Shown: piece by piece, positions 5,985-36,968 of the stretch
How the letters are laid out: every line of letters starts with the position of its first letter
Numbering within the stretch: position 1 is the first letter of the stretch
DNA from: a virus
Virus record (IMG/VR): IMGVR_UViG_3300025133_006005
Span: 1-38,265 of that record
Reading direction: 5' to 3' (one strand)
Length of the DNA stretch: 38,265 bases
Translations under genes and position numbers: made by a program
The notes under the pieces: generated by a model
The model's input: only the letters and a program-made list of their open reading frames with translations
Databases searched by the model: none
What the model was told of the DNA's origin: nothing

Positions 5985-6389
5985 CTATATATTATTTTTT
6001 TCTTTTTTAGACAAGATTATTCGTATTGTGTTCCAATCTTTCGCTATCGCTTTTTGCTCCCATTCTTCCCGAGTTACACCAATCGCTAAAGCTTCACCTT
6101 CTGAACTTGGAAATAAATAAATTTCTTTATCCTTTTTCACAATTATATAGACAAGTCCTCCGTGATAGGTATAAGACTTGTGCCATGCGATTTGTTCTAT
6201 ACTCAGCTTTAGCTTTAATTTGGTTTTTTCTCTTTTGGGGGACCGCACATACTTACCTTCTAGCCAACCACTTTGACCAGCTGAACAGTAGTGCACATCA
6301 GGAATTCCTCGTTCAATCTGTGTCTCAATTCTCTGAATAAAAAAATCGTTTAATTTTGATCTAATCGTCTGCCAAATTTGCTTTTCCAT
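5985..6389 (-). CDS. PD-(D/E)xK nuclease, VRR-NUC-like
   Basis: 134 residues. GIPDVHYC (D31) followed by GWLEGKYV (E44, K46) is the PD...ExK catalytic signature, and EQIAWH supplies the usual downstream Gln/His helix. The short size and order match VRR-NUC or Holliday-junction-resolvase-like nucleases, which cut branched or damaged DNA in a metal-dependent way. In a phage this would serve recombination, repair or junction clearing before packaging. It overlaps the end of the NAD synthetase gene, so the two are co-transcribed. Confidence 0.75.
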   Translation of the reverse strand: MEKQIWQTIRSKLNDFFIQRIETQIERGIPDVHYCSAGQSGWLEGKYVRSPKREKTKLKLKLSIEQIAWHKSYTYHGGLVYIIVKKDKEIYLFPSSEGEALAIGVTREEWEQKAIAKDWNTIRIILSKKEKNNI

Positions 6390-7125
6390 TAAACTTACAT
6401 ACAGGGATTGATTTCATTTTATGTAAATTCTTCTTTCTTAATTTTAAATATTTTTGATAATCAGGCTCTGTTGGATTATTCATTAAATATTCTATTTTGG
6501 AATAAGACATTCCTAATTGATCTATATCTTTTCTTCCATCATTCCATAAACCATCAGTAGGTTCAGCATTTATTATTTCATCTAAAATTTTTAATTCTCG
6601 TGCCATATCCCATACTTGAGTTTTTGTACAATCTGCGATTGGTGAAATATCTACTCCCCCATCACCATATTTTGTAAAAAAACCTACACCAAAGTCTTCA
6701 ATTTTGTTTCCTGTTCCTACCACAATACCCTTGGTACTAGCGGATATTTGATATAAACACATCATTCTCATTCTTGCTCTAGAATTTGCTAAACCCATTT
6801 TATCTGTAAATTTCATATCTATCATTTGATTTTCAAAACTTAAAAAAGTATGAGTTAAATCTAAATTAACACCATAACAATTTTGAAATTTAGTAGTTAA
6901 CCAATTTTTATGTTTAATAGATAAGTCATGATCTTCGGGTCTTTGGGAAATAGGCATTGATGCCACAAGTGTTTTAATTCCAGTTAGTCCACAAATTGTA
7001 CTAACAACTGATGAATCCACTCCTCCTGAAATTCCTACTACTAAACAATTAGCAGGCGTATCCATACTTTCAACATAATCAATTAGCCATTTTCTAATAA
7101 AATTTAGTCGTTCAAAAGGAGTCAT
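6361..7125 (-). CDS. nadE: NH3-dependent NAD+ synthetase
   Basis: 254 residues from the ATG at 7125; a TTG at 7137 is a less likely alternative. NadE converts nicotinate adenine dinucleotide, ATP and ammonia to NAD+. The ATP-pyrophosphatase P-loop SGGVDSS is at 33-39, and GTGNKIED (137-144) with VGFFTKYGDGGVDISPIADC is the classic NadE core for ATP and deamido-NAD binding. No glutaminase domain is present, so it belongs to the ammonia-dependent class. The gene starts inside the 3' end of the UDP-sugar dehydrogenase gene, an NAD+ consumer, which suggests cofactor supply for that enzyme or a general boost of NAD during infection. Confidence 0.9.
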   Translation of the reverse strand: MTPFERLNFIRKWLIDYVESMDTPANCLVVGISGGVDSSVVSTICGLTGIKTLVASMPISQRPEDHDLSIKHKNWLTTKFQNCYGVNLDLTHTFLSFENQMIDMKFTDKMGLANSRARMRMMCLYQISASTKGIVVGTGNKIEDFGVGFFTKYGDGGVDISPIADCTKTQVWDMARELKILDEIINAEPTDGLWNDGRKDIDQLGMSYSKIEYLMNNPTEPDYQKYLKLRKKNLHKMKSIPVCKFNGKANLADD

Positions 7126-8383
7126 TATTTTTTCCAATCGGTATATATTTTACATCTTTATTTACTTTTAAATATCTAAAAGGATCAATAACTATTGAAC
7201 CTGACATAAAATAAAATTCTTTCCAAGCTTCATGTTTAGTTCCTATAAAAAATAATTGAGGTTCTTTATCCCATTTATAAGTATCCTTTACTTTCATAAT
7301 ATCATTATCGTCAACCCAAGGATCCCACATAGTAACTTCTTTACCTTTTTCTTTTAGAATATTTTTCAACAAGATAGAAGGACTTCCTACTGTTAAATTA
7401 GTTTCAGGTTTAAAACATTTACCTAAAATATTTATTTTTTTATCTTCAGCATATTTTATACATAGATTAGCTAACCATTCAGTTTGTACTTCTCTTTGTT
7501 TCATTATATTATCATACCAATTATATGATAAATTTAATTTTTGAGCTAAATAACTCAGAGCTATATTATCTCTAGGATGACAACCTCCTCCATCTCCCAT
7601 TCCCCCTGTTAAATATTTAGGACTTATAATTCTATCTGTACATAAAGCAAGAGCTTTAGTAACATCATCAACATCTGTATTAGGTAAATAATGACAAGTT
7701 TCCATAATAGTATTTATCATTGCTATCTTCGTTGAAATAAAAGTATTATAGACTACTTTAATTAATTCAGCATTTTCTAAAGTAGTTTCATGAAAAGGAG
7801 CATTATTAATTGTTTTATAAAATTCTTTAGCTTTTTTAGCAGCAGACTTATCATCTACTCCAAATAAAATAACTTCGCTATTTAAGAAATCAGTAATAGT
7901 TGTTCCCATTGCTATAAAAAATGGATTATAACAAAGTTTTAAATGTGTGCCTAAAATTGGTTTAATAAGTTTTGTAATAGTACCAGGAAGGACAGTAGAT
8001 ATAATAACCACAACTTTATCTTTCCCTTGTTTTTCGATTTCTTCATTTAAATCTTTTATTCCTTTCACTAAATAATCATAATTAAAATCTGCTCTTTCTT
8101 CTGGAATACGAGTTATACCTTCATATTTTTCTTCATGCGGAGTTTGAATAGGAACAAATATAATATCACTTTCTTCCACAATTTTATCTGTAGTTTTTAA
8201 TTTTAATTGAGATTTTTGTAATAATTTATTAGCACCTTCTTCTTTATAAGTTAAACTTTTAAATCTAATATCACGAAGTGTACGATCATTAATATCTGTA
8301 CCAATAACAGTATGACCTTTACTTTCACACGCTAAAGCTACTGGTAAACCTAGTTTTCCTAACCCGATAAAACCTATTTTCAT
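7112..8383 (-). CDS. UDP-glucose/GDP-mannose 6-dehydrogenase family
   Basis: 423 residues. An N-terminal Rossmann fold has GFIGLGKLGLPVA (4-16) for NAD+. The middle domain has NAELIKVVYNTFISTKIAMIN (from 204), matching the catalytic Lys/Asn helix. GGGCHPRDN has the nucleophilic Cys268. A C-terminal UDP-binding domain follows (KCFKPETNLTVGSPSILL). The enzyme oxidises a nucleotide sugar at C6 to a uronic acid using two NAD+; UDP-glucose to UDP-glucuronate is the most common reaction in the family. It abuts DNA polymerase (1 base or less) and overlaps nadE. With a beta-glucosyltransferase-like gene nearby, it may make the sugar donor for DNA modification. A UDP-HexNAc substrate cannot be excluded. 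Confidence 0.85.
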   Translation of the reverse strand: MKIGFIGLGKLGLPVALACESKGHTVIGTDINDRTLRDIRFKSLTYKEEGANKLLQKSQLKLKTTDKIVEESDIIFVPIQTPHEEKYEGITRIPEERADFNYDYLVKGIKDLNEEIEKQGKDKVVVIISTVLPGTITKLIKPILGTHLKLCYNPFFIAMGTTITDFLNSEVILFGVDDKSAAKKAKEFYKTINNAPFHETTLENAELIKVVYNTFISTKIAMINTIMETCHYLPNTDVDDVTKALALCTDRIISPKYLTGGMGDGGGCHPRDNIALSYLAQKLNLSYNWYDNIMKQREVQTEWLANLCIKYAEDKKINILGKCFKPETNLTVGSPSILLKNILKEKGKEVTMWDPWVDDNDIMKVKDTYKWDKEPQLFFIGTKHEAWKEFYFMSGSIVIDPFRYLKVNKDVKYIPIGKNNDSF

Positions 8384-10225
8384 TTATTTTGCGTTACCCC
8401 AATTATCTCCTTTCTCGACATCCACCTTTAAGGGCACTTTCAACTTTACGCAAGTTTTCATGATTTGTAAAGCTTCTTCAAAACATTTTTGTTTATTCCA
8501 AGGAATTGAAAAATCTAATTCATCGTGAATAGTTAGTTTTAAATCTATTTCATCTAAAATTCCTGCTTCATAAATTTTTAACATTGCAGCTTTTGTAATA
8601 TCAGCTGATGAACCTTGAATTAAAGCATTTAATGCTGTATGAGTATAAGCTCGTTTTAATTCTTGTTTAGGATACTGTGCGTGTGCTTCGGAAAGTGTAT
8701 ATGCTCTTTCTCCCCAACTATCTCTAGGTTCCCACATATCAAATCTTCTTTTACGACCAAGTAAAGTTTTAATATAACCCCTACTCCCTGCCACATTTGA
8801 TACTTGTCTTGATAATTCTTTAACAAATGGTACTTTATTATGATATTGATTAAATAATTCATAAGCTTGATCTTGTTCTAATCCTAATTGTGCAGCTAAT
8901 TTTTTATTTCCCATACCATAGAATAATCCTAAATTAATAGTCTTGGCTTGCTTTCTTTCTATTCCTGCCATATTAGCAACCATTTGATGAAAATCTGTTT
9001 TATCATTTCTACAAAATTCTTTTTGAACTTGTAAAGCACTTTTCATATCTTTAAGACTAGCATAATGTACTAATACTCTAGGTTCTTGTTGAGAGTAATC
9101 CGCACAATACCATTCGGAATCTTCTTCTGGTATAAATAAACTTCTGATCATCGGACCAAGTTCAGGGTCTCTAGCTGGTACTTGTTGAAGATTAGGATAT
9201 TGAGAACTAAATCTTCCTGTAACTGTACCCATTGGATTAAAACTACAATGTATACGACCATTAACAGATTTATCAATAATCATGTTTTTAATAAATGTAT
9301 TTCGTATCTTGTCTAATTTACGAATATTTAAAATACTTTGACTAACATCATCCACTTGAGTTTCCAGCCAACTTGCAGTGAAAGATGGAGTACCTTTTGC
9401 GGTGTAGTTATATTTAATGTTATTTTTATCATATGCTTCCTTTAAAGAGGCGTTTGCCCATACATTAACTATGGTTCCTCCTAAAGTATTTAGTCGTGAT
9501 TGCATATGAATTTGTTTTTTTTCTAACTCTACATATAATTTATGGGCTTTATCAACATCAACTCTTACTCCTTTTTTTCTCATTTCAAATAGAACTTGAA
9601 TTAACTTTGATTCAAATTTAATTATATCTTCAATACCTTCTCTCTTTATTCTTTCTTGTTGTTTTTGATATATTTGTAAAGTAAGTAAAGCATCTTCTTT
9701 AGCATATTCACTTACTTCATTTGCGTGTAGTCTCCATAAATTTTCTTTTACTTTAGCACGTTTACCAAACTTATATAAGACAGCTTGTTCGAGTTCAACT
9801 TCATATTTAGATTTTCTTAAATAAAACTTTGCTAATGAGTTTAATGAATACTTTAATTTATTTTCATCAAGTAGATGTTCTATTGCAAGTACATCTAAAA
9901 TCTCGTGACTACGAGTAAGGGTAAGTCGCTTATCCAGTGAATAAAGCCACTCTACGTCATACATTGCGTTAGCAAATACGAGCTTTTTCTTCTTTGAGTA
10001 AATATATAATAAAAAACTAATGACTTTTTCTTTATTTAAATTTCCACCACCTTGGTGTTTAATTGGAAAATATTCGTTATATCCACTATCAGTTGCAATA
10101 GAAATACCTGCTATGAAACCATCTTTTCTAAAACCACCAGGACCCATTGTTTTAAGATTAGGATCATAGGTCTCGGTATCTATTGCTATTAAATTTGCTT
10201 CATCTATTTTATTTACATTAAACAT
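8384..10225 (-). CDS. polA: DNA polymerase I family (family A) with 3'-5' exonuclease
   Basis: 613 residues, the replicative polymerase of the phage. An exonuclease domain comes first: DTE (D16, E18), N86-x3-D90 and Y174-x3-D178 are all present, so proofreading should be active. Polymerase motifs follow: motif A CADYSQQEPR (D376), motif B R424-x3-K428-x3-L432-x3-Y436, and motif C HDE (567-569). There is no 5'-nuclease domain, as is usual for phage enzymes. The residue equivalent to E. coli Phe762 is Leu (L432), a replacement studied as a lifestyle marker in marine phages. It overlaps the dCMP deaminase gene end. Confidence 0.97.
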   Translation of the reverse strand: MFNVNKIDEANLIAIDTETYDPNLKTMGPGGFRKDGFIAGISIATDSGYNEYFPIKHQGGGNLNKEKVISFLLYIYSKKKKLVFANAMYDVEWLYSLDKRLTLTRSHEILDVLAIEHLLDENKLKYSLNSLAKFYLRKSKYEVELEQAVLYKFGKRAKVKENLWRLHANEVSEYAKEDALLTLQIYQKQQERIKREGIEDIIKFESKLIQVLFEMRKKGVRVDVDKAHKLYVELEKKQIHMQSRLNTLGGTIVNVWANASLKEAYDKNNIKYNYTAKGTPSFTASWLETQVDDVSQSILNIRKLDKIRNTFIKNMIIDKSVNGRIHCSFNPMGTVTGRFSSQYPNLQQVPARDPELGPMIRSLFIPEEDSEWYCADYSQQEPRVLVHYASLKDMKSALQVQKEFCRNDKTDFHQMVANMAGIERKQAKTINLGLFYGMGNKKLAAQLGLEQDQAYELFNQYHNKVPFVKELSRQVSNVAGSRGYIKTLLGRKRRFDMWEPRDSWGERAYTLSEAHAQYPKQELKRAYTHTALNALIQGSSADITKAAMLKIYEAGILDEIDLKLTIHDELDFSIPWNKQKCFEEALQIMKTCVKLKVPLKVDVEKGDNWGNAK

Positions 10226-10689
10226 TAATTTAATTTTCCTAAAATAAAATTAATATTAATATAAGCCCAATCTCTATCTGTCATACCCCATAATCTTTCA
10301 GCATCTTTTTGAATATATTTTTCTCCAAATACAATTCTTTTAGCTGAAGTATTTAAAAGTAATTTAACACAATGAATACAAGGACTTACTGTACAATAGA
10401 CTGTATGTATATCATATACATCTTTACATTGAAGTAATGCGTTTTGCTCAGCATGTATAGCTTCACATTTATCTAAATCTTTTCCACTTGTAGAGTGTGC
10501 TCCTTTGCAAGGATTATCTAAACAATGAGTAAACCCACTTGGATTTCCATTATAACCAGTTGCTAATACATGATTTTTTTTATTTACTAAAATACAACCA
10601 ACTTTTCTTCTGACACAAGTTCCTCGTTCGGATACTAACAACGCCATTCTCAAAAAATAAAAATCAGCAGGTTGTCTATAATTATCCAT
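10225..10689 (-). CDS. Deoxycytidylate (dCMP) deaminase
   Basis: 154 residues from the ATG at 10689 (MDNYRQPADF), which overlaps the upstream stop; a longer start at 10722 is less likely. The zinc and catalytic motif HAE (79-81) and PCIHC (103-107) define the dCMP/cytidine deaminase fold, and the additional Cys/His residues (CLDNPCKGAHS) match the dCMP deaminase subfamily. It turns dCMP into dUMP, feeding dTMP synthesis and lowering the unmodified dCMP pool. Its place beside the hydroxymethylase-like gene, kinase and MazG mirrors the nucleotide genes of T4-like phages. Confidence 0.9.
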   Translation of the reverse strand: MDNYRQPADFYFLRMALLVSERGTCVRRKVGCILVNKKNHVLATGYNGNPSGFTHCLDNPCKGAHSTSGKDLDKCEAIHAEQNALLQCKDVYDIHTVYCTVSPCIHCVKLLLNTSAKRIVFGEKYIQKDAERLWGMTDRDWAYININFILGKLN

Positions 10690-10873
10690 ATTTTTTAAAT
10701 TTATAAATTTTAGCTGAATCAAATCTTGAGGATGTTACTACTCTTTTTATTAATAGATATTCTTTTAACTTTTTATAACATTCCTGACAATAAAAAAAAT
10801 TATTTTCAGTTTCAATAAAACTAAAAATAAGTCGATCACAAGTTTTACAATTATATGATTCTTGATTAGCCAT
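10682..10873 (-). CDS. 63-residue zinc-ribbon-like protein
   Basis: Two CxxC pairs (C9/C12 and C29/C32) separated by 16 residues form a plausible zinc ribbon, followed by a Lys-rich helical tail. It overlaps both neighbours by 8 bases, so it is made together with the hydroxymethylase-like enzyme and the dCMP deaminase. Small zinc ribbons often bind nucleic acid or host RNA polymerase; no specific role can be read here. Confidence 0.65.
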   Translation of the reverse strand: MANQESYNCKTCDRLIFSFIETENNFFYCQECYKKLKEYLLIKRVVTSSRFDSAKIYKFKKYG

Positions 10874-11699
10874 ATATTAAATAATCTAATCTTTCAGAGA
10901 GTAATCCATTAGGTCTTAACTCTGTGCCTTTTAAATTTGCCATTTCCCATAAAATATCAATAAATTTAGTAGGAGTTTTTTTATACTTTTCAATAAGATT
11001 ATTTAAATTAAAATCTTCATCTTGATATGTACTTGTAAATATATTATCTAATTTACTAAAATCATTTTCATAAAGATGTCTACTTCCTGCTTGTATATTT
11101 AATTCACCTAACTTACATTTTAATCCACGAAAATTTAACCAACAAAGTATATAAAAAGAGATTGCACTAAAGTTAAAAGTATCATAAGGAGTACCTAACC
11201 AGGCGTCATTACTTCTCATACTAGCAATCGTATGTAACCATAACTCATCACTTGCTTCTCTTAATAAAAATTGTAAAGATAAAGTACAAGGAATATCTTT
11301 ACTTGATCTAGGATTCTCTCTCCATATGTTTATAACAGCTTGTCTACTATCATTATCTTTTATTAAAGTATTAATTACATAAGATGTTTGAGTAATAATT
11401 TTAGGACCATAAGCTCCAAAAAAAGTTACACCATCATCACTAAATCTTTTAACTCCATCAACATATTTAGCTACACTTGCAACATCATTTCTACCACTTA
11501 ACATCCAGGCTGCTTCACCAAACATAAAACTATAAGATAATTTTCTTTCAGGTATCGTTATAATAGGGTCTTCCATACCTATTTTAAAAGAGTGATTAAT
11601 TTTTTCTTTTATATTTAATCCTCTAGGTTTACACATAAACTCAGGAAGATTATAAATATCCCATAACATTTTTTTATATCTGATATTAGTTTCTTTCAC
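10866..11699 (-). CDS. Thymidylate synthase-fold enzyme, probable dCMP hydroxymethylase
   Basis: 277 residues of the thymidylate synthase superfamily: DSRQAVINIW (117 on), nucleophile Cys138 in DIPCTLSLQF, MRSNDAWLGTPYD (161-173) and GSRHLYEND (205 on). Several positions match T4 gp42 dCMP hydroxymethylase rather than thymidylate synthase. CT follows the catalytic Cys where synthase has CH. MRSND replaces QRSxD. Asp173 sits where synthase has the Asn that selects dUMP. GSxHxY replaces GDxHxY. This predicts 5-hydroxymethyl-dCMP formation from dCMP and methylene-tetrahydrofolate. The adjacent kinase, glycosyltransferase and MazG genes fit. Substrate choice is inference; a synthase or dUMP hydroxymethylase is the alternative. 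Confidence 0.75.
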   Translation of the reverse strand: MKETNIRYKKMLWDIYNLPEFMCKPRGLNIKEKINHSFKIGMEDPIITIPERKLSYSFMFGEAAWMLSGRNDVASVAKYVDGVKRFSDDGVTFFGAYGPKIITQTSYVINTLIKDNDSRQAVINIWRENPRSSKDIPCTLSLQFLLREASDELWLHTIASMRSNDAWLGTPYDTFNFSAISFYILCWLNFRGLKCKLGELNIQAGSRHLYENDFSKLDNIFTSTYQDEDFNLNNLIEKYKKTPTKFIDILWEMANLKGTELRPNGLLSERLDYLIYG

Positions 11700-11700
11700 T

Positions 11701-11895
11701 TTAATCTTTCACTTTAATTTTATTTGTATCTATAATTTTTTTAATATCTTTACCTTTTTTATTTACATATGCACATATAATTTTTGTTTTTGGAAATTTT
11801 AAAACTAATTTTTTTAACATTTTTTTAAATGACATCGCTTCTATTGTTTCTTGTTTTTCATCTGTTAAAGAAGTAATTATATAACTATATCGCAT
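11701..11895 (-). CDS. 64-residue basic hypothetical protein
   Basis: A Lys-rich small protein with alpha/beta character (MRYSYIITSLTDEKQETIE at the start, IICAYVNKKGKDIKK later). It lies between the dNMP kinase and the hydroxymethylase-like gene, 1 base from the latter and overlapping the former. No family recognised. Its conserved-looking composition and tight packing support it as a real gene. Confidence 0.6.
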   Translation of the reverse strand: MRYSYIITSLTDEKQETIEAMSFKKMLKKLVLKFPKTKIICAYVNKKGKDIKKIIDTNKIKVKD

Positions 11896-12448
11896 TTAAA
11901 ACCTTATCTGTAAATTGATCTAATTTATAGCCATCTTTAAACATATCGTATCTGATAAAATCTTTTCTTTCTCTTAAAGGAGATAAATTTTTAATAAAAA
12001 CATTTCTTTTACATTTACCAAACCAAGAAAAATAATAATCATCTATTACTGAATCTATATTATCATATTCTTCGTGTCTTAAAGTTTTATTTAATCTATG
12101 ATTTTCTTTTACTCTTGCTGTATCTTCTGGAATACACCAAATATATTTTGCACCTCTTTCTTTTAATCTAGTATATAAAAAACCCGGATTATAACTTGGA
12201 CCACTACTTCTTATATAAGAATAAAATTGTTCACTAGGCCAATGTCTATCTATTAAAACTAATTTACCTTCAAGTTGTTTTCTTACTGCTAATCTTGCAC
12301 TAGCTGTATGCCACAATTTCATATTTTTATGAACTCTTAAATGCATATAATAAGAGTTTTTAAATTTTTTTTTAATATGATTTATTAATGTAGTTTTACC
12401 TACACCATCAGGTCCTTCAAATATTAAGATTTTTCCTTTAATAAACAT
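11885..12448 (-). CDS. Deoxynucleoside monophosphate kinase (thymidylate kinase-like)
   Basis: 187 residues. The P-loop GPDGVGKTT is at 12-20 and the DRHWPSE motif (67-73) matches the DRx nucleotide-base motif of thymidylate kinase-like enzymes. A Lys/Arg-rich lid region (ENHRLNKTLRHEEYD) follows. It would phosphorylate a dNMP, and between a hydroxymethylase-like and a glycosyltransferase-like gene it is a candidate for making the modified dNDP, as T4 gp1 does. Ordinary dTMP kinase activity is equally compatible with the motifs. Confidence 0.8.
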   Translation of the reverse strand: MFIKGKILIFEGPDGVGKTTLINHIKKKFKNSYYMHLRVHKNMKLWHTASARLAVRKQLEGKLVLIDRHWPSEQFYSYIRSSGPSYNPGFLYTRLKERGAKYIWCIPEDTARVKENHRLNKTLRHEEYDNIDSVIDDYYFSWFGKCKRNVFIKNLSPLRERKDFIRYDMFKDGYKLDQFTDKVLNAI

Positions 12449-13458
12449 TTAAAAAATTCTTTCGTTCTTTCTTTCGACCAAAATTTATTTTTTAAAATTT
12501 CAGCTTGACTATTAAATACTTTAGTTAATTCATCATTACTACATTTTTCTAAATTTTCAGGTTCATGATAAAAACCTAATACTTTAGTTTCTTCAGGATG
12601 ACCATAGATAATACATCCTGCATCTAATGCCATTTTATATCTTACTCTCCACCAGCCACTTCCTTGTAAAGTATGATAATGAGGCGGACTTATTATTCCC
12701 CATATTTTACAATACTCTGCAAATAATTCATGTTCTTTTAATCTTGTTTGTCCTTCTTTTATATTTCCAAAAGTTTTTACAGGCCAATTAAAATATTGTT
12801 GTTTTAACCAATTTTGTTTACTTACTAAACTAGCACAAGCCCATTCTTTTTTTCTTTCATGAGATTGACTTGAAAATAAATTTATTAAATCAGGATGATT
12901 TAAATGTAAATTACAATAAATTGAAGGATCCCAATTTATAATTTCTTTAGCTCTCATCCCTAAAGTTTCATAATTACCACCATCATAAGCTGGAATTAAA
13001 AGTTTATAAGGCCATTCTTCAAAAGCAAATGTATCTACAAAATCTTCTATTTCTTTTTTATAATCTTGAGCCTCATCCCAATTAACTTTTCCTACTGGAT
13101 TTCCTGCTTTACTTAATTTTTTCCATATTCTCCAATGACCTCTACTAAAAGTTCCAAAACCACTTACTGAATCTTTAGTTTGCCAATCATCTATTGATAC
13201 AATTGCATCTGGTCTTTTAATTAAAGTATATGCTGCACCATACCAAAAACGTGCTGATAAACTATTAGGACCAAATACAAATACAAAAACTTTATCATAT
13301 TGAGAAACATCTTCTCCCGGGACAATTGCTTTTTGAGTAACATCATGTCCTAAATCTTTTAAAACTGTAGGTAATATTCTAGCTGATGTAGATATATTTA
13401 GTGTACTTCTTGCTGTTCCTACAGCTAATGCATTAAAGCCTGTTATTAGTATTTTCAT
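12424..13458 (-). CDS. Putative GT-B glycosyltransferase, T4 beta-glucosyltransferase-like
   Basis: 344 residues from the ATG at 13458; an upstream TTG would add a Lys-rich stretch made by overlap with mazG. Its architecture parallels T4 beta-glucosyltransferase (351 residues). There is an N-terminal Rossmann half (MKILITGFNA, DLGHDV, SQYDKVFVFVFG, then SIDDWQ). In the C-terminal half, FGNIKEGQ (230-237) matches T4 FGNAREKQ. RVRYKMALDAGCIIYGHPEE (271-290) aligns with the T4 UDP-sugar site RVWETMASDAVMLIDEE. A helical tail ends the protein. It would transfer a sugar from a UDP donor, most simply to hydroxymethylated DNA bases. The alignment is by eye and distant. Confidence 0.65.
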   Translation of the reverse strand: MKILITGFNALAVGTARSTLNISTSARILPTVLKDLGHDVTQKAIVPGEDVSQYDKVFVFVFGPNSLSARFWYGAAYTLIKRPDAIVSIDDWQTKDSVSGFGTFSRGHWRIWKKLSKAGNPVGKVNWDEAQDYKKEIEDFVDTFAFEEWPYKLLIPAYDGGNYETLGMRAKEIINWDPSIYCNLHLNHPDLINLFSSQSHERKKEWACASLVSKQNWLKQQYFNWPVKTFGNIKEGQTRLKEHELFAEYCKIWGIISPPHYHTLQGSGWWRVRYKMALDAGCIIYGHPEETKVLGFYHEPENLEKCSNDELTKVFNSQAEILKNKFWSKERTKEFFKCLLKEKS

Positions 13459-13888
13459 CTTGTTTTTCTTTTTCTTCTTCAATTATTTGTTCTAGATCAG
13501 GTGGTCTCCATCCTTTAGGCTTTACTACATCAAAAGATGTACCACGTTTTTTAGATTTACTTTTAGTTCTTATTTTACTCATATTGGCTTTTTGTACTTC
13601 ATTCCAAGCTTTTTCAAAAGGTAAATTAAAAAGCCACGCAGTTCCTAATGCAATATAAACTATATCAACAAGAGCATCTAAAGCACCAGCTGTATCTTTT
13701 TTAGTTATTGCTTGAGTATATTCTGTAAGTTCTTCTAATAAAAAAGAAGTTCTAAAATTAACTAATTCATTATTTTCTGGTATACCAACTTTATCATTTT
13801 TTTCAAATCCAAATTTTTTATGAAAAGCATCAATATCTTTTATTAAAGTATCTTTATCCATATCTTCAAACATATCTTCATAAGTCAT
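13433..13888 (-). CDS. MazG-like nucleotide pyrophosphohydrolase
   Basis: 151 residues with an all-alpha NTP-PPase core: FLLEELTEYTQA (metal-binding ExxE at 53-56), then GALDALVDIVYIALGTAWLF with D71/D75, and the conserved AWNEVQKANMSKI and KPKGWRPPDL segments. Such enzymes hydrolyse (d)NTPs to (d)NMPs and pyrophosphate. In phages the role is either removal of an unwanted dNTP (for example dCTP before modified DNA is made) or lowering of stress nucleotides. The genetic context favours the first. The 3' end overlaps the glycosyltransferase-like gene. Confidence 0.8.
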   Translation of the reverse strand: MTYEDMFEDMDKDTLIKDIDAFHKKFGFEKNDKVGIPENNELVNFRTSFLLEELTEYTQAITKKDTAGALDALVDIVYIALGTAWLFNLPFEKAWNEVQKANMSKIRTKSKSKKRGTSFDVVKPKGWRPPDLEQIIEEEKEKQDENTNNRL

Positions 13889-14304
13889 AAGTGATATTCA
13901 AAATTCCTTCCTTCTTGATGAGTTTTTAATTCTACAGCTCCTTTTCTTAAATGAAATTTTCTAGCCATTTCTGTTAAAGGAGAAAGAGTAACTAATTTTT
14001 TTACTTCTTCTTGATGAGCATAAAATTTTAAATGATTTATTAATAAACTTCCTGCTCCTTTTTTATTACTCCATAAACTATAAGCTACTAATATATCTCC
14101 TCCTAAATTGGTAAGTGCACTTAATTCTCTTATATTTCTAGGAATTCCTAAAGTTCTTGCTATACATACTACTCCTATAATATCTCCATTTAATTGTTCT
14201 AATCCAAATATTTTTCTTCCATGATTTAATCTCCATTTTAAATCTAATTCAGGTCTAATAGGATCCTCTTTAATATTAATAGTTTTTAATTCTTTAAAGA
14301 TCAT
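13885..14304 (-). CDS. GNAT-like acetyltransferase
   Basis: 139 residues with a GNAT-type order. A beta strand (GGDILVAYSLWSN) is followed by the acetyl-CoA loop KKGAGSLLINHLKFYA, a strand (KKLVTLSPL), and a helix/strand FHLRKGAVELKTH typical of the GNAT C-terminus. The substrate is unknown. It lies between the C5-methyltransferase and mazG with 4-base overlaps, so a role in tailoring a modified base or a protein is possible but unproven. Confidence 0.55.
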   Translation of the reverse strand: MIFKELKTINIKEDPIRPELDLKWRLNHGRKIFGLEQLNGDIIGVVCIARTLGIPRNIRELSALTNLGGDILVAYSLWSNKKGAGSLLINHLKFYAHQEEVKKLVTLSPLTEMARKFHLRKGAVELKTHQEGRNFEYHL

Positions 14305-15359
14305 AATAATGTAGCTTGTTCTGGTACCTTTCTAAAATCTATAATTTGTAATTCTTCTTCTTTTTTATTCTTTTCTTTAATACTATTTTTTATTATTCTT
14401 GCTACATATTCAGCGACAGGAGGCATTACTCCACGTGCGATTTGTGATCCTATACTAGAACTTGGTCCTTCCCATTTATAATCTACTGGAAAACCTGCCA
14501 TATAAGCTAATTCTTTATGACCAAATAATCTATCTTCATTAGGATGTATATAGAATCCTCCTGCTATAACTGGTATATGTGCATTATCTTTTAATCTCCA
14601 TTTCATAAATTGAGGTCTACCTTTTACTCCTCCACGCATTCCTCCTCGTACCCAAGTTTCTGGTGGATTATATCTTTCCCATGTTACTCTTAAACTTTCT
14701 CCTTGTTTACAATGTTTAAGATAAGGTTTTTCATTTTCTCCTAACTTCATTAAATGTCCTATATCGGATCCATGTTCTTTTTTAAATTCACTTAAAACTT
14801 CTCCCGCTGTTGGTAATGGTTGAAAATTTAAAATATGCGGATTTAATCCATATTTAGTTGCTATAAAAAAAAATCTTTTTCTACTATGATTTAAACCAGT
14901 AAAACCTCCATCAATTAATAAATGGGTAACTTGATAATTTAATTTATTTGCTTCTTTAGTTAATTCCATAATCATTGGATATCCTCCATTTTTAGAGTAA
15001 ATTCGAGGAACTGATTCAATAGCTAAAGCTGTGGGATTTAATTCTTTTAAAAGATTAAAGCTATTTCTCCAACATGCAATTCTAGGATCATCTCTCCATG
15101 CTCCTGCTCCTTTCTGTGCTCCTCCTAAATTAGACCAAGGAGCACATGGTGGATTGCAATAAACAAAATCAATCTTATTTTTAAATTTTTTTCGAGGCCA
15201 TTCTTCTTCACCTTCATATACAGGAATATTTGGAAAATTAGCTTTAAAAGTTTTTTTATATAAACCTGGTTTCATTTCGAAATGAGCTTCAACATCAAAA
15301 TGTTTACTTACTCCAAGAGTAAAACCGCCAGCAAATATATAAGTTCCTAATGCTTTCAT
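14301..15359 (-). CDS. DNA C5-cytosine methyltransferase
   Basis: 352 residues. Motif I YIFAGGFTLGV (7-17) binds S-adenosylmethionine. Motif IV NPPCAPWS (69-76) has the nucleophile Cys72, motif VI AIESVPRI (Glu115) activates the base, and SRKRFFFIA is motif VIII. The target-recognition region and a C-terminal motif X-like GSQIARGVMPPVAEYVARII follow. It methylates cytosine at C5 in a short DNA sequence. No restriction partner is nearby, so it is an orphan enzyme, most likely protective. It shares an operon with the putative hydroxymethylation genes. Confidence 0.88.
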   Translation of the reverse strand: MKALGTYIFAGGFTLGVSKHFDVEAHFEMKPGLYKKTFKANFPNIPVYEGEEEWPRKKFKNKIDFVYCNPPCAPWSNLGGAQKGAGAWRDDPRIACWRNSFNLLKELNPTALAIESVPRIYSKNGGYPMIMELTKEANKLNYQVTHLLIDGGFTGLNHSRKRFFFIATKYGLNPHILNFQPLPTAGEVLSEFKKEHGSDIGHLMKLGENEKPYLKHCKQGESLRVTWERYNPPETWVRGGMRGGVKGRPQFMKWRLKDNAHIPVIAGGFYIHPNEDRLFGHKELAYMAGFPVDYKWEGPSSSIGSQIARGVMPPVAEYVARIIKNSIKEKNKKEEELQIIDFRKVPEQATLL

Positions 15360-21136: not shown

Positions 21137-22618
21137 ATGCAAGTAAAATTTATAAATGAAAAGAAATTTTTAAAATATAATTTTAAAACTAAACCTTATC
21201 AACATCAATATGATGCATTTGATAAAAGTAAAGAAAAAAAATATTATGCTTTATTTATGGAACAGGGTACAGGAAAATCTAAAGTTATTATTGATAACAT
21301 TGCTTATCTTTATCGAAAAGGTAATATTGATACTGCTATTATTGCTGCCCCTAAAGGTGTATATCGTAATTGGTATGCTTCAGAATTTAAAGCTCATATG
21401 CCTGCAGATGTGGTTAGTTTTACAGATATATGTATTTGGAATCCAATAGAAACTAAAACTAATATTGAAAGATTAACTAAATTTTTAGAATTTTCTCATA
21501 AATTAAAATTTTTTATTATTAATATAGAAGCTCTATCTACAGAGAAAGGTAAAAACTATTTACAACGATTATTAAATATTTCTAAATCTTTTTTCTGTAT
21601 AGATGAAAGCACTAATATAAAAAATAGAACTGCTAGAAGAACTAAAGCATGTATGAAGTTAGGTAAATTAGCAACTTATCGAAGAATATTAACAGGAACT
21701 CCAGTGACCCAAGGTCCATTAGACTTATGGTCTCAAATGCATTTTCTAGATGAGTTTATACTTCAATCGAGTTTCTATGCTTATCGAAATACATTTTGTG
21801 TTATTCAAAGAAGAAGAACATCTAGTCATAGTTTTGATGAAGTAGTAGGTTATCAAAGATTAGATGAACTTCAAAAAATATTAGATGAACATTCTTTTAG
21901 AGTAACTAAAGAAGAATGTTTAGATTTACCACCTAAACTACGTCAAATAAGACATATCGACATGACACCGGCTCAAAAGCGCATGTATGTCATACTTAAA
22001 AAACGTGCTATACTAGAACTAGAACGTGAGAAATTAGTGACGGCGCCTCTTATTATCACACGAATATTGAGATTACAGCAGATATTATGTGGATTTATTA
22101 AATATGATAATAAAACTGAAGAAAATATAGAAGGTGAGAATCCAAGGATTCAGGAACTATTAAGTGTAATAGAAGAAACTCAAGGCAACATAATTATATG
22201 GGCAACTTATAGAAATAGTATTAAATTAATTAGAGATACATTAGCTAAAAAATTTGGAGCAAGTAAAGTTGCAGCTTTCTTTGGTGATACTAAAGCAGAA
22301 GATAGACAAGGTATTGTTGAAAGATTTCAATCAGGAGAATTAAGATTTTTTGTAGGACAACCTAGAACTGGTGGATATGGACTTACATTAACTAATGCTA
22401 AAACTGTAATCTATTTTAATAATACTTATGATATGGAAGTTAGACTTCAATCTGAAGATAGAGCACATAGAATTGGACAAAAGGATAAAGTATTATATAT
22501 AGATTTTATATGTCCTAATACTTTAGATGAAAAGATAATGAAAACTTTAAATACTAAAAAGAAACTCGCTGATCAAATAACTGGTGATAATTGGAAAGAA
22601 TTATTTAAAGAACTTTAG
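21137..22618 (+). CDS. SNF2-family DEAD/DEAH helicase
   Basis: 493 residues; the only gene on the plus strand. Walker A QGTGKS (43-48), Walker B IDEST (DEST at 156-159), motif III LTGTP, and helicase C-terminal motifs with GGYGLTLT and QSEDRAHRIGQ, the SNF2 hallmark. It is a double-strand DNA translocase driven by ATP, here in the compact form seen in many phages, without accessory domains. It might remodel protein-DNA complexes or branched DNA during replication. AGAAAG lies 6 bases before the ATG. Its 3' end overlaps the radical SAM gene on the other strand by 14 bases. Confidence 0.93.
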   Translation: MQVKFINEKKFLKYNFKTKPYQHQYDAFDKSKEKKYYALFMEQGTGKSKVIIDNIAYLYRKGNIDTAIIAAPKGVYRNWYASEFKAHMPADVVSFTDICIWNPIETKTNIERLTKFLEFSHKLKFFIINIEALSTEKGKNYLQRLLNISKSFFCIDESTNIKNRTARRTKACMKLGKLATYRRILTGTPVTQGPLDLWSQMHFLDEFILQSSFYAYRNTFCVIQRRRTSSHSFDEVVGYQRLDELQKILDEHSFRVTKEECLDLPPKLRQIRHIDMTPAQKRMYVILKKRAILELEREKLVTAPLIITRILRLQQILCGFIKYDNKTEENIEGENPRIQELLSVIEETQGNIIIWATYRNSIKLIRDTLAKKFGASKVAAFFGDTKAEDRQGIVERFQSGELRFFVGQPRTGGYGLTLTNAKTVIYFNNTYDMEVRLQSEDRAHRIGQKDKVLYIDFICPNTLDEKIMKTLNTKKKLADQITGDNWKELFKEL

Positions 22619-24503
22619 TCTTATATCTTGCTATTCTTCTACCAAACCATAAAGTATTTTTAGCCCATTCATATAGATCATCATAAGTTTTACCAGTAAA
22701 AGTTTGTACATTTTTTTGCTCTTTAAAAGATTTATTATTTTCTATAACATCATGTATATTAAAATTAAAATATTGATAAATAGGATATTGTTTAAAAGGA
22801 TGATGTAAACGAGCTTTTTGATAATTAATTATATCTCTTAAAATAAAGTCATCTACATCATATTTATCTCTTAAATATTTAGAAATTTGATTATAAAATA
22901 TTTCTTTATTTTTAACTAATCGAATACATGTTGCTTCATCTACTTCCCAATTAATATTTCCTACTCCTGAAATAACATCTCCCCAATGTCTTTTATTCTT
23001 TAATATTTTATTTAAATTTTTTTTTATAGTTAAATATTCTTTTCCTATATAAGTGTTAGACTTTTTTTCACAAAAAGATAAGAGATCAGTATAAAAATCT
23101 TTATAATTAATATTATATATTTTTTTCATTGCTCTAGCTATAAATTGTAACGGACCTAAATAATGGCCAAAGATAACTAGCCATCTAAATTGATGACCCT
23201 TGATCCAATCTTTATGATTACATTTTCTTGTTGCTATAACAAAAGAAACTAAATCATCTACTAACTTTTCTGGATTGGATCTATGTGAAAATCTAGGTTG
23301 AGCATTTACTGATTTAATTCCAAATTGATCTTTATATCCTGGTTCATTAATAGGTGCGTTAGGTAATAACATCATTAAATGTACATCTAAATAAGTATGA
23401 TAACCTTCTTCCATTATATAAGTTACACCATCTATAAAAGAATCAATAGTTTCTTCAGGTAATCCCCATATTAATTCTACATAACTTCCTATTCCTTCTT
23501 TCTCATACATATCTATAAATTCTTTTAATTTACCACTATGTACATTTTTTCTTTTTACAGCTTTTAAAACATCAGGATTAAAAGACTGTAAAGCAATAGT
23601 CATTCCTTTTTGAATATCATGCTTTTCAAATAATTTAGCTATTTGTAAAACTTTATCAGCTTGTCCTTTTGCCCAAGTAACTCTAAAAGCATGTGGATAT
23701 CCTGTTTTCTCTTTTACTTTAACAACATATTCTGCTAAATTCATATCTTGATCAAATAAAATACCAAAATTAGAATTAGCATCAGTTACATATTCTATTT
23801 TATTTTTAGCAATCCAATCTATTTCTTTTTTAGTTTTTTCATAACTTGTTTTTAATTTTTGATAATATTTATCTCCAATTTCACAAAAAGCACAACTAAA
23901 AGGACAACCTCTTGCTGATTCTACTGTTGCGTGAAAATTATAATTTTTATCTTTTTTATTTTTTTCTACTACCCAATCAAAACTACCATCAAGAAAAGGA
24001 CTAGGATTATCATGTATACCTTCTAATCTTACACGTGGAGGATTTCTTACTTCTTTATTATTTATATTATAAGTTATACCTTTTATTTCTTCATAAGGTT
24101 TTTCATATAATAATTCTTTTACTGTTTCTTCACCTTCACTATGTATTAAAACATCTACATAAGGATGTTCATTAAAAAAACCTTTGGCTCTATCAGCTAA
24201 TGGTTGATGTTGTCCTCCAAACATTATTTTACAATTAGGATAATTTTGTTTTATAGTTTTAGCTATCTCACAATTTAAATTCCAATTCCACATGAAACAA
24301 CTAAAAAGTAATATATCTGGATTTTCTATTTTATTAATAATATTTTTAGCTTCATCACGAGCATAAAACCAATCTTTTAATTTATAGTGATCTTTAATAT
24401 AAGGATTATTTTTAACATAAGACCATACTACACCGCTACAATAAGGAAGATAAACTTGATTAGCAAATACATCGCTTAATTCGAATAAATATATATTTTT
24501 CAT
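22605..24503 (-). CDS. B12-binding-domain radical SAM enzyme
   Basis: 632 residues. The N-terminal part (1 to about 135) has the order of a cobalamin-binding Rossmann domain (PDILLFSCFMWNWN, CKIMFGGQH, DVLIHSEGEET). The radical SAM core begins with C200-x3-C204-x2-C207 (RGCPFSCAFCEIG) for the 4Fe-4S cluster and continues through ESARG, TIALQSFN and ELIWGLPEET. No DxHxxG motif is present, as is usual for this class, which often methylates unreactive carbons. A 200-residue helical C-terminus is unassigned. The gene is one base from a BtuB-like receptor gene. The substrate is unknown. Confidence 0.85.
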   Translation of the reverse strand: MKNIYLFELSDVFANQVYLPYCSGVVWSYVKNNPYIKDHYKLKDWFYARDEAKNIINKIENPDILLFSCFMWNWNLNCEIAKTIKQNYPNCKIMFGGQHQPLADRAKGFFNEHPYVDVLIHSEGEETVKELLYEKPYEEIKGITYNINNKEVRNPPRVRLEGIHDNPSPFLDGSFDWVVEKNKKDKNYNFHATVESARGCPFSCAFCEIGDKYYQKLKTSYEKTKKEIDWIAKNKIEYVTDANSNFGILFDQDMNLAEYVVKVKEKTGYPHAFRVTWAKGQADKVLQIAKLFEKHDIQKGMTIALQSFNPDVLKAVKRKNVHSGKLKEFIDMYEKEGIGSYVELIWGLPEETIDSFIDGVTYIMEEGYHTYLDVHLMMLLPNAPINEPGYKDQFGIKSVNAQPRFSHRSNPEKLVDDLVSFVIATRKCNHKDWIKGHQFRWLVIFGHYLGPLQFIARAMKKIYNINYKDFYTDLLSFCEKKSNTYIGKEYLTIKKNLNKILKNKRHWGDVISGVGNINWEVDEATCIRLVKNKEIFYNQISKYLRDKYDVDDFILRDIINYQKARLHHPFKQYPIYQYFNFNIHDVIENNKSFKEQKNVQTFTGKTYDDLYEWAKNTLWFGRRIARYKTKVL

Positions 24504-24504
24504 A

Positions 24505-26058
24505 TTAAAATGTTTTAGTATATCCTATTGTAATTTGTCTATCTTTACCTGTAAAGCCATGTGGCATTTCGTAATTTTTATTTAATAAATTATTAATATT
24601 TAAAGTAAATCCATATTTTTCTATTCCTAGATTAAATAAATGAAGTTCTTTCATATCTATAATAGACCAATTAGAATTATGAATATCTTTACTTTCTCCT
24701 ATATAATTATAACTGGTAATTAAATTAAAGTCATTTATATTATAAATATAATTAAATCCTCCTGAAAATTTAGGTCTCCTTAATTGTACTACTCCATTTT
24801 TTTTACTATTTAATTTAGAAGCAAATATTTCAAAATTATCAATTTTATAAGATAGCTCTATTCCATCTTGATTCTGTATTCCTGTTTCTGATTCAAATAA
24901 AGCAAGAGTAATATTATTATAATCAAAAATTAATTCATTAGTTTTACTATCTTCTTCTAATGTCCATATAGTTCTTTTTTTATATCCAGTAGAATGATTA
25001 GCTCTTATATTTAAATCATTAAACTTTTTAAATAATCCGATATTATAACTATTAAAATCTGAATCTTTTCTTGCTCCTAAAGATATAAGTCCGTTAGTAT
25101 AATTTGTAAATAAACTTACATTATCATCATCTTGAGTATGAGATTGATCATACTTATAATCTAAACCTAACCCAAATGTATTATTTTGATGACCGAGTTT
25201 TATGAAATAATTTTCAGATTTATATTCATCACTTTCATATTTTCTATCATATTCGTGTGTATGTAAGTAAAGATAATTATTACCATTTTTTAATTGTTGT
25301 TCTAATCCTGTTTGTAAAGCGAAAAACGTATTATCACTAAATCCATTTTGAATATCTAAGGAATGACCATCAATATTTGTAAAAGTATTTCTTGAAAAAA
25401 AGGTTGTTTTAAAATTAATATTATCATACCATTTACTTAAATTAATTCCTATTGATTTATTATTAACACTATCTTTATCAGTTCCGTGTTTTAAGGCGGA
25501 GGATTCTTTTTCTTTAAATTGTCCTCCTTGAATACTTATATCCCAATCATTTATATTTGTATAGTAATTTCCATTAATACTTTTATTTGTAGTAGATATT
25601 TTAGTTTCATAATCAGTTATTGTAATTATATTAATAGCTCCGCCTATTGCATCCACTCCAAACTTACTAGCTGATGCTCCTTTATAAACTTGAATAAAAG
25701 ATACATTATACATAAAGTCTTGACCAAAATCAAAAGCTCCTGTAGGTGTAGAAAAATCATTTATAGGAATACCATTAAGTAAAACTAAAGTATTATTACT
25801 ATTTGTTCCTCTTAAAAATAATGATGAGTGTTGACCTATAGGTCCAGATTGTACTGCATTAGATCCATTTATAAAATTTAATACTTTAGTTAAAGTATTA
25901 AGACTAAAAGTTTGTATTTCTTTTTTAGAAATAATAGAAGTAGGTTTAATTTTATAATCTAAAGAATTAGCATTAATAGTAAGACAAGGAATATCATCTT
26001 TCCAATTACAAGCTTGAGCTGATGTTGTTATTAATAAAAATATTATAAACCACCTCAT
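24505..26058 (-). CDS. TonB-dependent outer-membrane receptor, BtuB-like
   Basis: 517 residues. Signal peptide MRWFIIFLLITTSAQA, with cleavage before C17. A TonB-box-like LTINAN stretch (26-31) comes next. The plug domain has LRGTNSNNTLVLLNGIPIND (82-101) and YKGASASKFGVDAIGGAINI (125-144). A beta-barrel of about 370 residues ends in NLLNKNYEMPHGF and a terminal Phe, the BAM-recognised outer-membrane signature. The last 30 residues track E. coli BtuB closely (NLFDKDYETVYGY...YTF). All parts look intact, only shorter than BtuB (614). It should import a TonB-dependent ligand, plausibly a corrinoid. Its phage origin is shown by the lysis genes on one side and the SNF2 gene beyond its partner. 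Confidence 0.85.
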   Translation of the reverse strand: MRWFIIFLLITTSAQACNWKDDIPCLTINANSLDYKIKPTSIISKKEIQTFSLNTLTKVLNFINGSNAVQSGPIGQHSSLFLRGTNSNNTLVLLNGIPINDFSTPTGAFDFGQDFMYNVSFIQVYKGASASKFGVDAIGGAINIITITDYETKISTTNKSINGNYYTNINDWDISIQGGQFKEKESSALKHGTDKDSVNNKSIGINLSKWYDNINFKTTFFSRNTFTNIDGHSLDIQNGFSDNTFFALQTGLEQQLKNGNNYLYLHTHEYDRKYESDEYKSENYFIKLGHQNNTFGLGLDYKYDQSHTQDDDNVSLFTNYTNGLISLGARKDSDFNSYNIGLFKKFNDLNIRANHSTGYKKRTIWTLEEDSKTNELIFDYNNITLALFESETGIQNQDGIELSYKIDNFEIFASKLNSKKNGVVQLRRPKFSGGFNYIYNINDFNLITSYNYIGESKDIHNSNWSIIDMKELHLFNLGIEKYGFTLNINNLLNKNYEMPHGFTGKDRQITIGYTKTF

Positions 26059-35583: not shown

Positions 35584-36219
35584 TTACTTTTTAGGTAAAG
35601 TAAAGCCTTTATACCAGGCAGGAACGCCTAGAAATGGACGTTTATCAAACTCATTTTCTTTAGCTAATTTAGAACCTTTTTTATTATAATGTAAAAATAC
35701 TTGTGCACAATCTTTACCAGTAAATTCTTCTCTCCAATGTTCAAGATCACATCCGGAATATATTAACATGTCACCTGGTTCTAGTTTTACTTTAATACCA
35801 GCTTGACCTTCTTTACTTGTTGGGTCTAAATATATAGGCCAATCATCACCACCTAGATTTAAAGTAGTAGATATTTCACAACTAAATCTATCTTTGTGTC
35901 TAGCTAAAACATCTCCTTTTTTATATATTCTTGCATAAGAATATGTTTCACTTAATTTTAATTTAGTATGTTTCTCCATTACAGGTTTAACTTTCTGTAG
36001 TAAAGTCTCCATAACTAAATCACTATAATGAGAATAAGTATTAGGAACTTGTTGATCATTCCATACTCCCCAATACTCTGTAAATGGTGATATATATTTT
36101 TGATTAAATAAAAATTGCGCAACCTTTCTTTTATTTAAGAAATAAGCAAAAGAAAAATCTGCTAATTCTCTACTAATAGCGCCTTTTAATACTGTATATT
36201 TATTTTTTTTGAATGACAT
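35584..36219 (-). CDS. Fe(II)/2-oxoglutarate oxygenase 4
   Basis: 211 residues. ARIYKKGDVLARHKDRFSCE supplies the iron ligands H108 and D110, and LEHWREEFTGK supplies H161. LEPGDMLIYSGCDLEHW precedes it, and CAQVFLHYN closes the fold. It is a jelly-roll hydroxylase that uses O2 and 2-oxoglutarate; the target, protein or small molecule, is unknown. AAAAGGAG lies upstream of the ATG. It is last of four such genes and overlaps the previous one. Confidence 0.75.
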   Translation of the reverse strand: MSFKKNKYTVLKGAISRELADFSFAYFLNKRKVAQFLFNQKYISPFTEYWGVWNDQQVPNTYSHYSDLVMETLLQKVKPVMEKHTKLKLSETYSYARIYKKGDVLARHKDRFSCEISTTLNLGGDDWPIYLDPTSKEGQAGIKVKLEPGDMLIYSGCDLEHWREEFTGKDCAQVFLHYNKKGSKLAKENEFDKRPFLGVPAWYKGFTLPKK

Positions 36220-36964
36220 TTAAATCTCCTTTTGTTGGTTGTCCATTTTGAATATTTAATACTCCTTTGGGTATGGCTTGACAGTTCCAGTGTATAAATC
36301 TAAAAGGTTCATATCCCATATCTACTATATATTGATGAGGCATATAAGATGGAAAAAAAATCATTTTTCCAGGTTTTACTTCATAATTAATTTGTGTAGT
36401 TGCATATGTAACTTTTGTTTTATCTTTTTCTGGTAAAAGATTCATTATATTACCAGGTCTTGGATCTTCAAAGAAAGGTCGTGATGTTTTTTCACTAGCT
36501 TTTAAAAAATAAAAACCAGAGATATGACCATTCCAATGAGTGTGTAAGGTATGATGTCCACCACCTTTTTTAGCAAACTCTTGTACCCATAATTCTGTAG
36601 TAAATAACTGATGACCAGACATCTCAAAACCCATTTCTTCTAATAGATTATATGCCGTAGCACCTATATAATTTTGTAGTTCTAAAAAATTAGGATCTCC
36701 AATTAAAGAAGTCGAATGAAAAACATGTCCCATATCTCCTTTATCTCCAAACTTTTTATTTCTTTTATCTATATCTTTTTTTAAATTTTTCTTGGCAGTT
36801 TCAATATATTTATCAGAAGCTTTATTCAATTCATCTACAAATGCCGGTTCATCTACATACCATACAGGACATTTAAATAAATCTTCTCTGGCTAATTCTC
36901 GAGGAAAAGACTTAGCACTGCCACAGGATATTTTATCGAATTGTTTTTTACTTCTTTTTTTCAT
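36200..36964 (-). CDS. Putative Fe(II)/2-oxoglutarate oxygenase 3
   Basis: 254 residues. GGGHHTLHTHWNGHISGFYFL contains the H-x-H iron ligands (H141, H143) of the putative 2OG-Fe(II) oxygenase family (TIGR02466/PF13759 type), and IFFPSYMPHQY gives the distal His210, with R222 for 2-oxoglutarate. A basic N-terminal 70 residues precede the jelly-roll. The substrate is unknown. It overlaps oxygenase 4 by 20 bases and follows oxygenase 2 by 4. Confidence 0.7.
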   Translation of the reverse strand: MKKRSKKQFDKISCGSAKSFPRELAREDLFKCPVWYVDEPAFVDELNKASDKYIETAKKNLKKDIDKRNKKFGDKGDMGHVFHSTSLIGDPNFLELQNYIGATAYNLLEEMGFEMSGHQLFTTELWVQEFAKKGGGHHTLHTHWNGHISGFYFLKASEKTSRPFFEDPRPGNIMNLLPEKDKTKVTYATTQINYEVKPGKMIFFPSYMPHQYIVDMGYEPFRFIHWNCQAIPKGVLNIQNGQPTKGDLNVIQKK

Positions 36965-36968
36965 ATAA

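Follow-up and report, generated by a model that had tools for sequence, protein, structure and literature searches.

dCMP hydroxymethylases and glycosyl-5hmC are classical features of the T-even phages. Pentose variants on 5hmC have been described in RB69 (PMC6024577) and Thanatos (PMC12838424), and the MetaGPA work of 2021 described metagenomic Asp-type enzymes paired with domains of the MazG-like and deaminase kinds (PMC8670742). Owing to these T-even, RB69, Thanatos and MetaGPA precedents, the kind of enzyme considered here is already known; what is new is this member of it, together with a predicted family of 5hmC glycosyltransferases. The residues that set such enzymes apart have been studied. 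In T4 gp42, Asp145, Cys148 and Asp179 are tied to function, whereas Leu143 and Trp83 of thymidylate synthase (ThyA) have been linked with shielding and the transfer of hydride (PMC6400193). Positions 177 and 147 of E. coli ThyA were the top two discriminators between contigs with modified and unmodified cytosine (PMC8670742). Additionally, the specificity residues Asp186, Lys133 and Ala176 have been tested in MilA, the CMP hydroxymethylase of mildiomycin biosynthesis, where Lys133/Ala176 is the ribose-preferring pair (PMC5175136).

The DNA analysed here (the window), 38,265 bases long and 71% A+T, is an entire IMG/VR contig from an uncultivated virus of bacteria. Another contig, IMGVR_UViG_3300025103_003050, has 52,328 bases and matches the window at 99.97% identity over 38,006 bases, and its extra ~14 kb is mainly structural-looking, as judged from the ORFs. 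The first 25 kb of the window had no megablast match among phages. An Rfam scan gave no matches, a tRNA search found none, and palindrome avoidance analysis revealed no clear depletion, a result that speaks neither for protected DNA nor against it. One gene of the window is read here as encoding a dCMP hydroxymethylase within a T4-like glycosyl-5hmC pathway, with a probability of roughly 0.87; this reading is predicted from what computation shows of residues, lineage, folds, conserved operon and glycosyltransferase pairing. The gene lies in a minus-strand operon whose members are given below in their order, with a GNAT-like ORF standing between the first two and an NAD synthetase following the last.

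14301..15359, minus strand: divergent C5-cytosine DNA methyltransferase homologue (PF00145, 1.4e-27)
13433..13888, minus strand: MazG-like all-alpha nucleotide pyrophosphohydrolase (PF01503, 1.9e-12; phrog_671; EELxE and DALVD motifs)
12424..13458, minus strand: predicted 5hmC DNA glycosyltransferase, GT-B fold, 344 aa (AF2 model, T4 BGT fold match, distant homologues beside Asp-type hydroxymethylases); the listed ORF begins at TTG 13482, and relatives start at ATG 13458
11885..12448, minus strand: TMK-like deoxynucleoside-monophosphate kinase (phrog_761, 1.9e-12; P-loop GPDGVGK; DRHWPS)
11701..11895, minus strand: small ORF, 64 aa, between kinase and hydroxymethylase, kept in close relatives only
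10866..11699, minus strand: predicted dCMP hydroxymethylase, Asp-type, 277 aa (PF00303, triad, tree, AF2 model)
10682..10873, minus strand: small Cys-rich ORF, 63 aa, between hydroxymethylase and deaminase, in this virus only
10225..10689, minus strand: dCMP deaminase (PF00383, 5.8e-22; HAEQN and PCIHC zinc motifs); the listed ORF begins at TTG 10722
8384..10225, minus strand: family A DNA polymerase (PolA) with 3'-5' exonuclease (PF00476, 4e-74)
7112..8383, minus strand: UDP-glucose/nucleotide-sugar dehydrogenase (TIGR03026, 6.6e-66)

The hydroxymethylase candidate opens with GTG at 11699 and its stop codon ends at 10866; the GTG start is supported by a 93% identical relative with ATG in the same place. 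The sequence-only reading had placed a thymidylate-synthase-fold enzyme at exactly this position, and its coordinates are right. Pfam matches the protein to PF00303 (Thymidylat_synt, E=4e-15), and the PHROG families that it matches are called thymidylate synthase. These labels would make it an ordinary thymidylate synthase, providing dTMP for a virus of such A+T-rich DNA. The window and the near-identical 52-kb contig hold only this one PF00303 gene and no ThyX, the sequence-only reading having seen no separate thymidylate synthase in the window either, which fits the same explanation; since the window is a contig fragment, the absence of another ThyA holds for the DNA seen. However, one relative, contig G011, encodes a canonical ThyA (4e-103) in addition to its Asp-type enzyme, and the Asp-type enzyme is therefore argued to do another job. 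Furthermore, the best PDB sequence match of the 277-aa enzyme is MilA (5e-27), the best ThyA reaching 3e-6.

The active site was compared in an alignment of the window enzyme with T4 gp42, MilA, E. coli and phage ThyA, relatives from viral contigs, and five phage hydroxymethylases of the dUMP type: those of Pam3 and ctpVu19 and three related to SPO1, YuA/M6 and ViI. The nucleophile is Cys138 (Cys148 in T4, C146 in ThyA). At the cytosine-recognition position, Asp173 aligns with Asp179 of T4 gp42 and Asn177 of E. coli ThyA, just as the sequence-only reading had it. Thr139 is cytosine-type, being Thr also in T4 (C148-T149) and MilA, whereas ThyA usually has His (C146-H147) and the dUMP hydroxymethylases have Asn; the gp42-like Cys-Thr pair proposed earlier is thereby borne out. 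Asp135 is hydroxymethylase-type and aligns with T4 Asp145 and ThyA Leu143, and Phe86 stands where ThyA has Trp83. The Asp173/Thr139/Asp135 triad occurs in 27 of the 42 compared sequences, T4 gp42 and MilA included, and in no ThyA or dUMP hydroxymethylase. The corresponding residues are Asn/His/Leu in five of six ThyA and Asn/Asn/Asp in all five dUMP hydroxymethylases. As the window enzyme has kept none of the E. coli ThyA residues Asn177, His147, Leu143 and Trp83, an ordinary thymidylate synthase is very improbable in spite of its labels.

Further positions agree with T4. Its Glu60, Tyr96, Arg168, Asp171, His216 and Tyr218 are matched by E62, Y97, R162, D165, H208 and Y210 of the window enzyme, and Arg119/Ser163 form a deoxyribose-type pair (T4 Arg123, Ser169). 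The GSxHxY motif, which had been called gp42-like, is indeed found in T4 and MilA, ThyA having GDxHxY. The MRSND motif, likewise proposed as gp42-like, stands in part: the Met before RSND, like the Ser of GSxHxY, is cytosine-type or nearly so in the compared set, but RSND itself is not diagnostic because dUMP hydroxymethylases share it. E62, R119, C138, R162, S163, D165, D173, S206, H208 and Y210 are invariant in 29 aligned relatives, and the dN/dS of the gene against three relatives is 0.19-0.31; for these reasons, the signature is not a product of chance. The Asp is also conserved in 31/31 relatives found in bacterial genomes.

The Asp at the recognition position would also suit an Xp12-like dCMP methyltransferase forming 5-methyl-dCMP via hydride transfer, as the change of Asn to Asp alone makes ThyA a dCMP methylase (literature cited in PMC8670742). 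Against this, the window enzyme has Asp135 and Phe86 in place of Leu143 and Trp83, the shielding and hydride-transfer residues (PMC6400193), and the associated predicted glycosyltransferase needs a hydroxyl acceptor, so that such a methyltransferase is improbable. Two kinds of homologue vary at these positions. The hydroxymethylase relatives L047 and L048 have Asn instead of Asp135, and their product chemistry may differ. A thymidylate-synthase homologue of Xanthomonas phage Mallos (L062:4875-5735) keeps Asp at the cytosine position, but its nucleophile is followed by Pro and Asn takes the place of Asp135; it adjoins a dCMP deaminase and DHFR, and could be a dCMP methyltransferase rather than a hydroxymethylase.

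A maximum-likelihood tree of 42 proteins sets ThyA apart from the window enzyme (100/96); a position within ThyA was the outcome that the sequence-only reading, proposing an alignment and a tree, had named as refuting a hydroxymethylase. The enzyme falls in a clade with HTVC200P gp14 and relatives from uncultivated-virus contigs (98/92), and the T4 enzymes (100/100) and dUMP hydroxymethylases (100/99) form clades of their own. Among these hydroxymethylase lineages, the tree allows either T4 gp42 or the dUMP type to be the nearer one. By this tree, the window enzyme forms a separate Asp-type lineage beside the T4 gp42 clade and would not be a gp42 orthologue. The nearest isolate homologue is gp14 of Pelagibacter phage HTVC200P (41%), annotated as thymidylate synthase, which shares the clade, the triad and a kinase directly upstream; unlike the window, HTVC200P had no glycosyltransferase, MazG or deaminase homologue in the stretch examined.

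Lineage also bears on a dUMP hydroxymethylase of the SPO1/M6/ViI type, which would make hm-dUMP for thymine hypermodification. Such enzymes (SPO1, YuA/M6, ViI, Pam3), which serve thymine rather than cytosine modification, share the superfamily, the Asp135-type pocket and RSND with the window enzyme, the adjoining dCMP deaminase would supply dUMP, and thymine-hypermodification clusters occur in related pelagiphages (PMC9599517). However, all five of those compared have Asn at positions 173 and 139 and lie in their own clade, and the window triad is common to the cytosine-acting MilA and T4 enzymes. Moreover, ten cassette-side proteins were scanned with no match to an aGPT-PPlase family. A dUMP substrate thus appears improbable.

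The AlphaFold2 model of the enzyme (pLDDT 90.4) points in the same direction. Among the best 50 structural matches listed, MilA comes first (Z 26.1, 251 aa, 2.6 A, 31% identity) and T4 dCMP hydroxymethylase does not appear, an absence that counts neither way; ThyA structures score Z 23.1 and below. Foldseek agrees, with 1.7e-18 for MilA and 2.5e-12 for ThyA. As the nearest solved structure, and one that shares the cytosine-type Asp and Thr and the hydroxymethylase-type Asp, MilA suggests a ribonucleotide CMP hydroxymethylase with a small-molecule product. This is scarcely credible, since the ribose-preferring Lys133/Ala176 of MilA is replaced by the deoxyribose-type Arg119/Ser163 (PMC5175136) and the genomic setting is one of viral DNA replication. 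The dCMP-hydroxymethylase assignment of the sequence-only reading is hence supported by the triad, Arg119/Ser163, a tree position outside ThyA, a modelled structure closer to MilA than to ThyA, and an operon that holds the expected partner genes together with a predicted 5hmC glycosyltransferase.

The operon order is kept in about 28 viral contigs, and more distant relatives keep MazG-kinase-hydroxymethylase-deaminase-PolA. Across the conserved loci, MazG, kinase, deaminase and dehydrogenase have kept their catalytic motifs, the dehydrogenase showing GGGCHPRD in 27/27. The MazG-like enzyme is likely a dCTP pyrophosphatase. The TMK-like kinase, which most relatives encode immediately upstream of their hydroxymethylase, is likely an hm-dCMP kinase. 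The C5-methyltransferase homologue, which accompanies the cassette syntenically at about 37 loci, has altered motifs (PPCAPWS, ESVP) that are conserved among relatives. Its presence in the operon is odd, as the carbon that it would methylate should already bear the hydroxymethyl group of 5hmC; perhaps it works early in infection, methylates host DNA or uses 5hmC itself. Distant relatives that have no homologue of the 344-aa protein carry a class I methyltransferase-like gene upstream of MazG (L037:5465-6301, for example), perhaps for an alternative decoration enzyme.

The 344-aa GT-B protein has no Pfam, NCBIfam or PDB sequence match (PDB was also searched with a family profile), and its PHROG is a function-unknown, phrog_14998-like family. 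A model built from 19 relatives (pLDDT 81, pTM 0.83) has a GT-B fold. In the structural comparison T4 beta-glucosyltransferase ranks first (Z 17.8, 291 aa, 3.8 A, 13% identity), on a par with SenB, a selenosugar synthase (17.1). Many other GT-B enzymes come next, including T4 alpha-glucosyltransferase. Comparison of the family with T4 BGT by hhalign gave a probability of 1%, with no sequence relationship detected.

Genomic pairing is stronger evidence than fold for the prediction that this protein is a 5hmC DNA glycosyltransferase. A family-alignment search retrieved 80 viral loci. Outside the window's own group, a thymidylate-synthase-family gene is present in the fetched DNA at 36 of 48 loci, and all 35 neighbours that could be scored are Asp-type. 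The loci are not all independent, and several hydroxymethylase lineages are involved. In unrelated viruses, homologues of 27-32% identity have another Asp-type hydroxymethylase no more than 10 kb away; many of the paired enzymes belong to the T4 gp42-lineage, being 50-60% identical to T4 gp42, and sit in compact modules of the form MazG-gp42-deaminase-GT, and others are nearest to MilA, or nearest to SPO1L1 yet with Asp. Among the 12 loci without a thymidylate-synthase-family gene, several of which are short, six carry a T4 gp56-like dCTPase homologue. Annotated phages with both the glycosyltransferase and an Asp-type enzyme are Aeromonas phage 25, Gordonia phage Mareelih and ctIqW946. In the literature searched, no description of this pairing with several hydroxymethylase lineages was found. 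Phage C48C1 (Kyanoviridae) is an exception, having a homologue (L094:8001-9035) but lacking a PF00303 gene; its glycosyltransferase may use a different acceptor, or the hydroxymethyl bases may be made by other means.

From the preceding evidence we infer the catalysis, how the steps follow one another, which sugar is added and how far genomic cytosine would be replaced. Cys138 would attack C6 of dCMP while Asp173 reads and protonates the cytosine ring, and the one-carbon unit would come from methylene-tetrahydrofolate. In the Asp135-type pocket, water instead of hydride would close the reaction, yielding 5-hydroxymethyl-dCMP. The substrate would be provided by the MazG-like enzyme converting dCTP to dCMP. 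The TMK-like kinase would phosphorylate hm-dCMP, a host NDP kinase would complete hm-dCTP, and the phage PolA would incorporate it into DNA, where the GT-B enzyme would add a sugar to 5hmC. Surplus dCMP may be turned by the dCMP deaminase into dUMP, for dTMP made by the host.

The predicted roles of dCTP pyrophosphatase, hydroxymethylase, dNMP kinase, dCMP deaminase and GT-B glycosyltransferase are those of the T4 pathway. The window differs from T4 in its separate hydroxymethylase lineage, its MazG-type rather than gp56-type pyrophosphatase, its family A polymerase, a glycosyltransferase not recognisable as BGT by sequence, and a genome of roughly 50 kb compared with 169 kb. The MetaGPA homologues (PMC8670742) likewise have Asp at 177, a changed 147, and co-occurring PRA-PH (MazG-like) and dCMP deaminase. 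Their partner is a carbamoyltransferase, whereas the window has a BGT-like GT-B enzyme and no carbamoyltransferase domain in the window proteins scanned against Pfam.

The nucleotide-sugar dehydrogenase is a possible supplier of the sugar donor. UDP-glucose is taken as the default donor because a sister group (48%; L155-L162) keeps the glycosyltransferase without the dehydrogenase, and for the same reason the dehydrogenase was demoted from core pathway part to side hypothesis. That hypothesis, in which the phage UDP-glucose dehydrogenase would provide UDP-glucuronate (with NAD synthetase raising NAD+) and the DNA of the window's group would carry 5-(glucuronosyloxymethyl)cytosine, is unlikely, the sister group counting against it. 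To our knowledge, this base is not known on phage cytosine. A distant precedent is phage SP-15, which encodes a UDP-glucose dehydrogenase and whose thymine-type bases are glucuronylated (PMC5977210). The NAD synthetase (6361-7125, minus strand) and the dehydrogenase form a lineage-specific pair between PolA and a phrog_2165 gene.

Elsewhere in the window, two minus-strand genes adjoin each other: a TonB-dependent vitamin B12 receptor (24505-26058, BtuB-like, 6.5e-27) and a KedN5-family B12-dependent radical SAM C-methyltransferase (22605-24503, 2.5e-75). BtuB matches in the phage collection are weak and partial only, two of them in records named as Salmonella contigs. Relatives occur in five viral contigs, with the radical SAM gene alongside in three, and a viral pair of B12 uptake and a B12 enzyme looks unusual. 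At the right end (35584-38101, minus strand), a four-ORF cluster beside structural genes includes one match to 2OG-Fe(II) oxygenase (phrog_81) and one to a PHROG labelled ferrochelatase.

Taken as predicted, the locus extends T4-style cytosine replacement to widespread small uncultivated aquatic viruses that databases annotate as thymidylate-synthase carriers. The unnamed phrog_14998-like family gains a predicted function as a 5hmC DNA glycosyltransferase accompanying several independent dCMP hydroxymethylase lineages, including that of T4 gp42. If confirmed, these would be new DNA-modifying enzymes and would help to explain how such viruses escape restriction.
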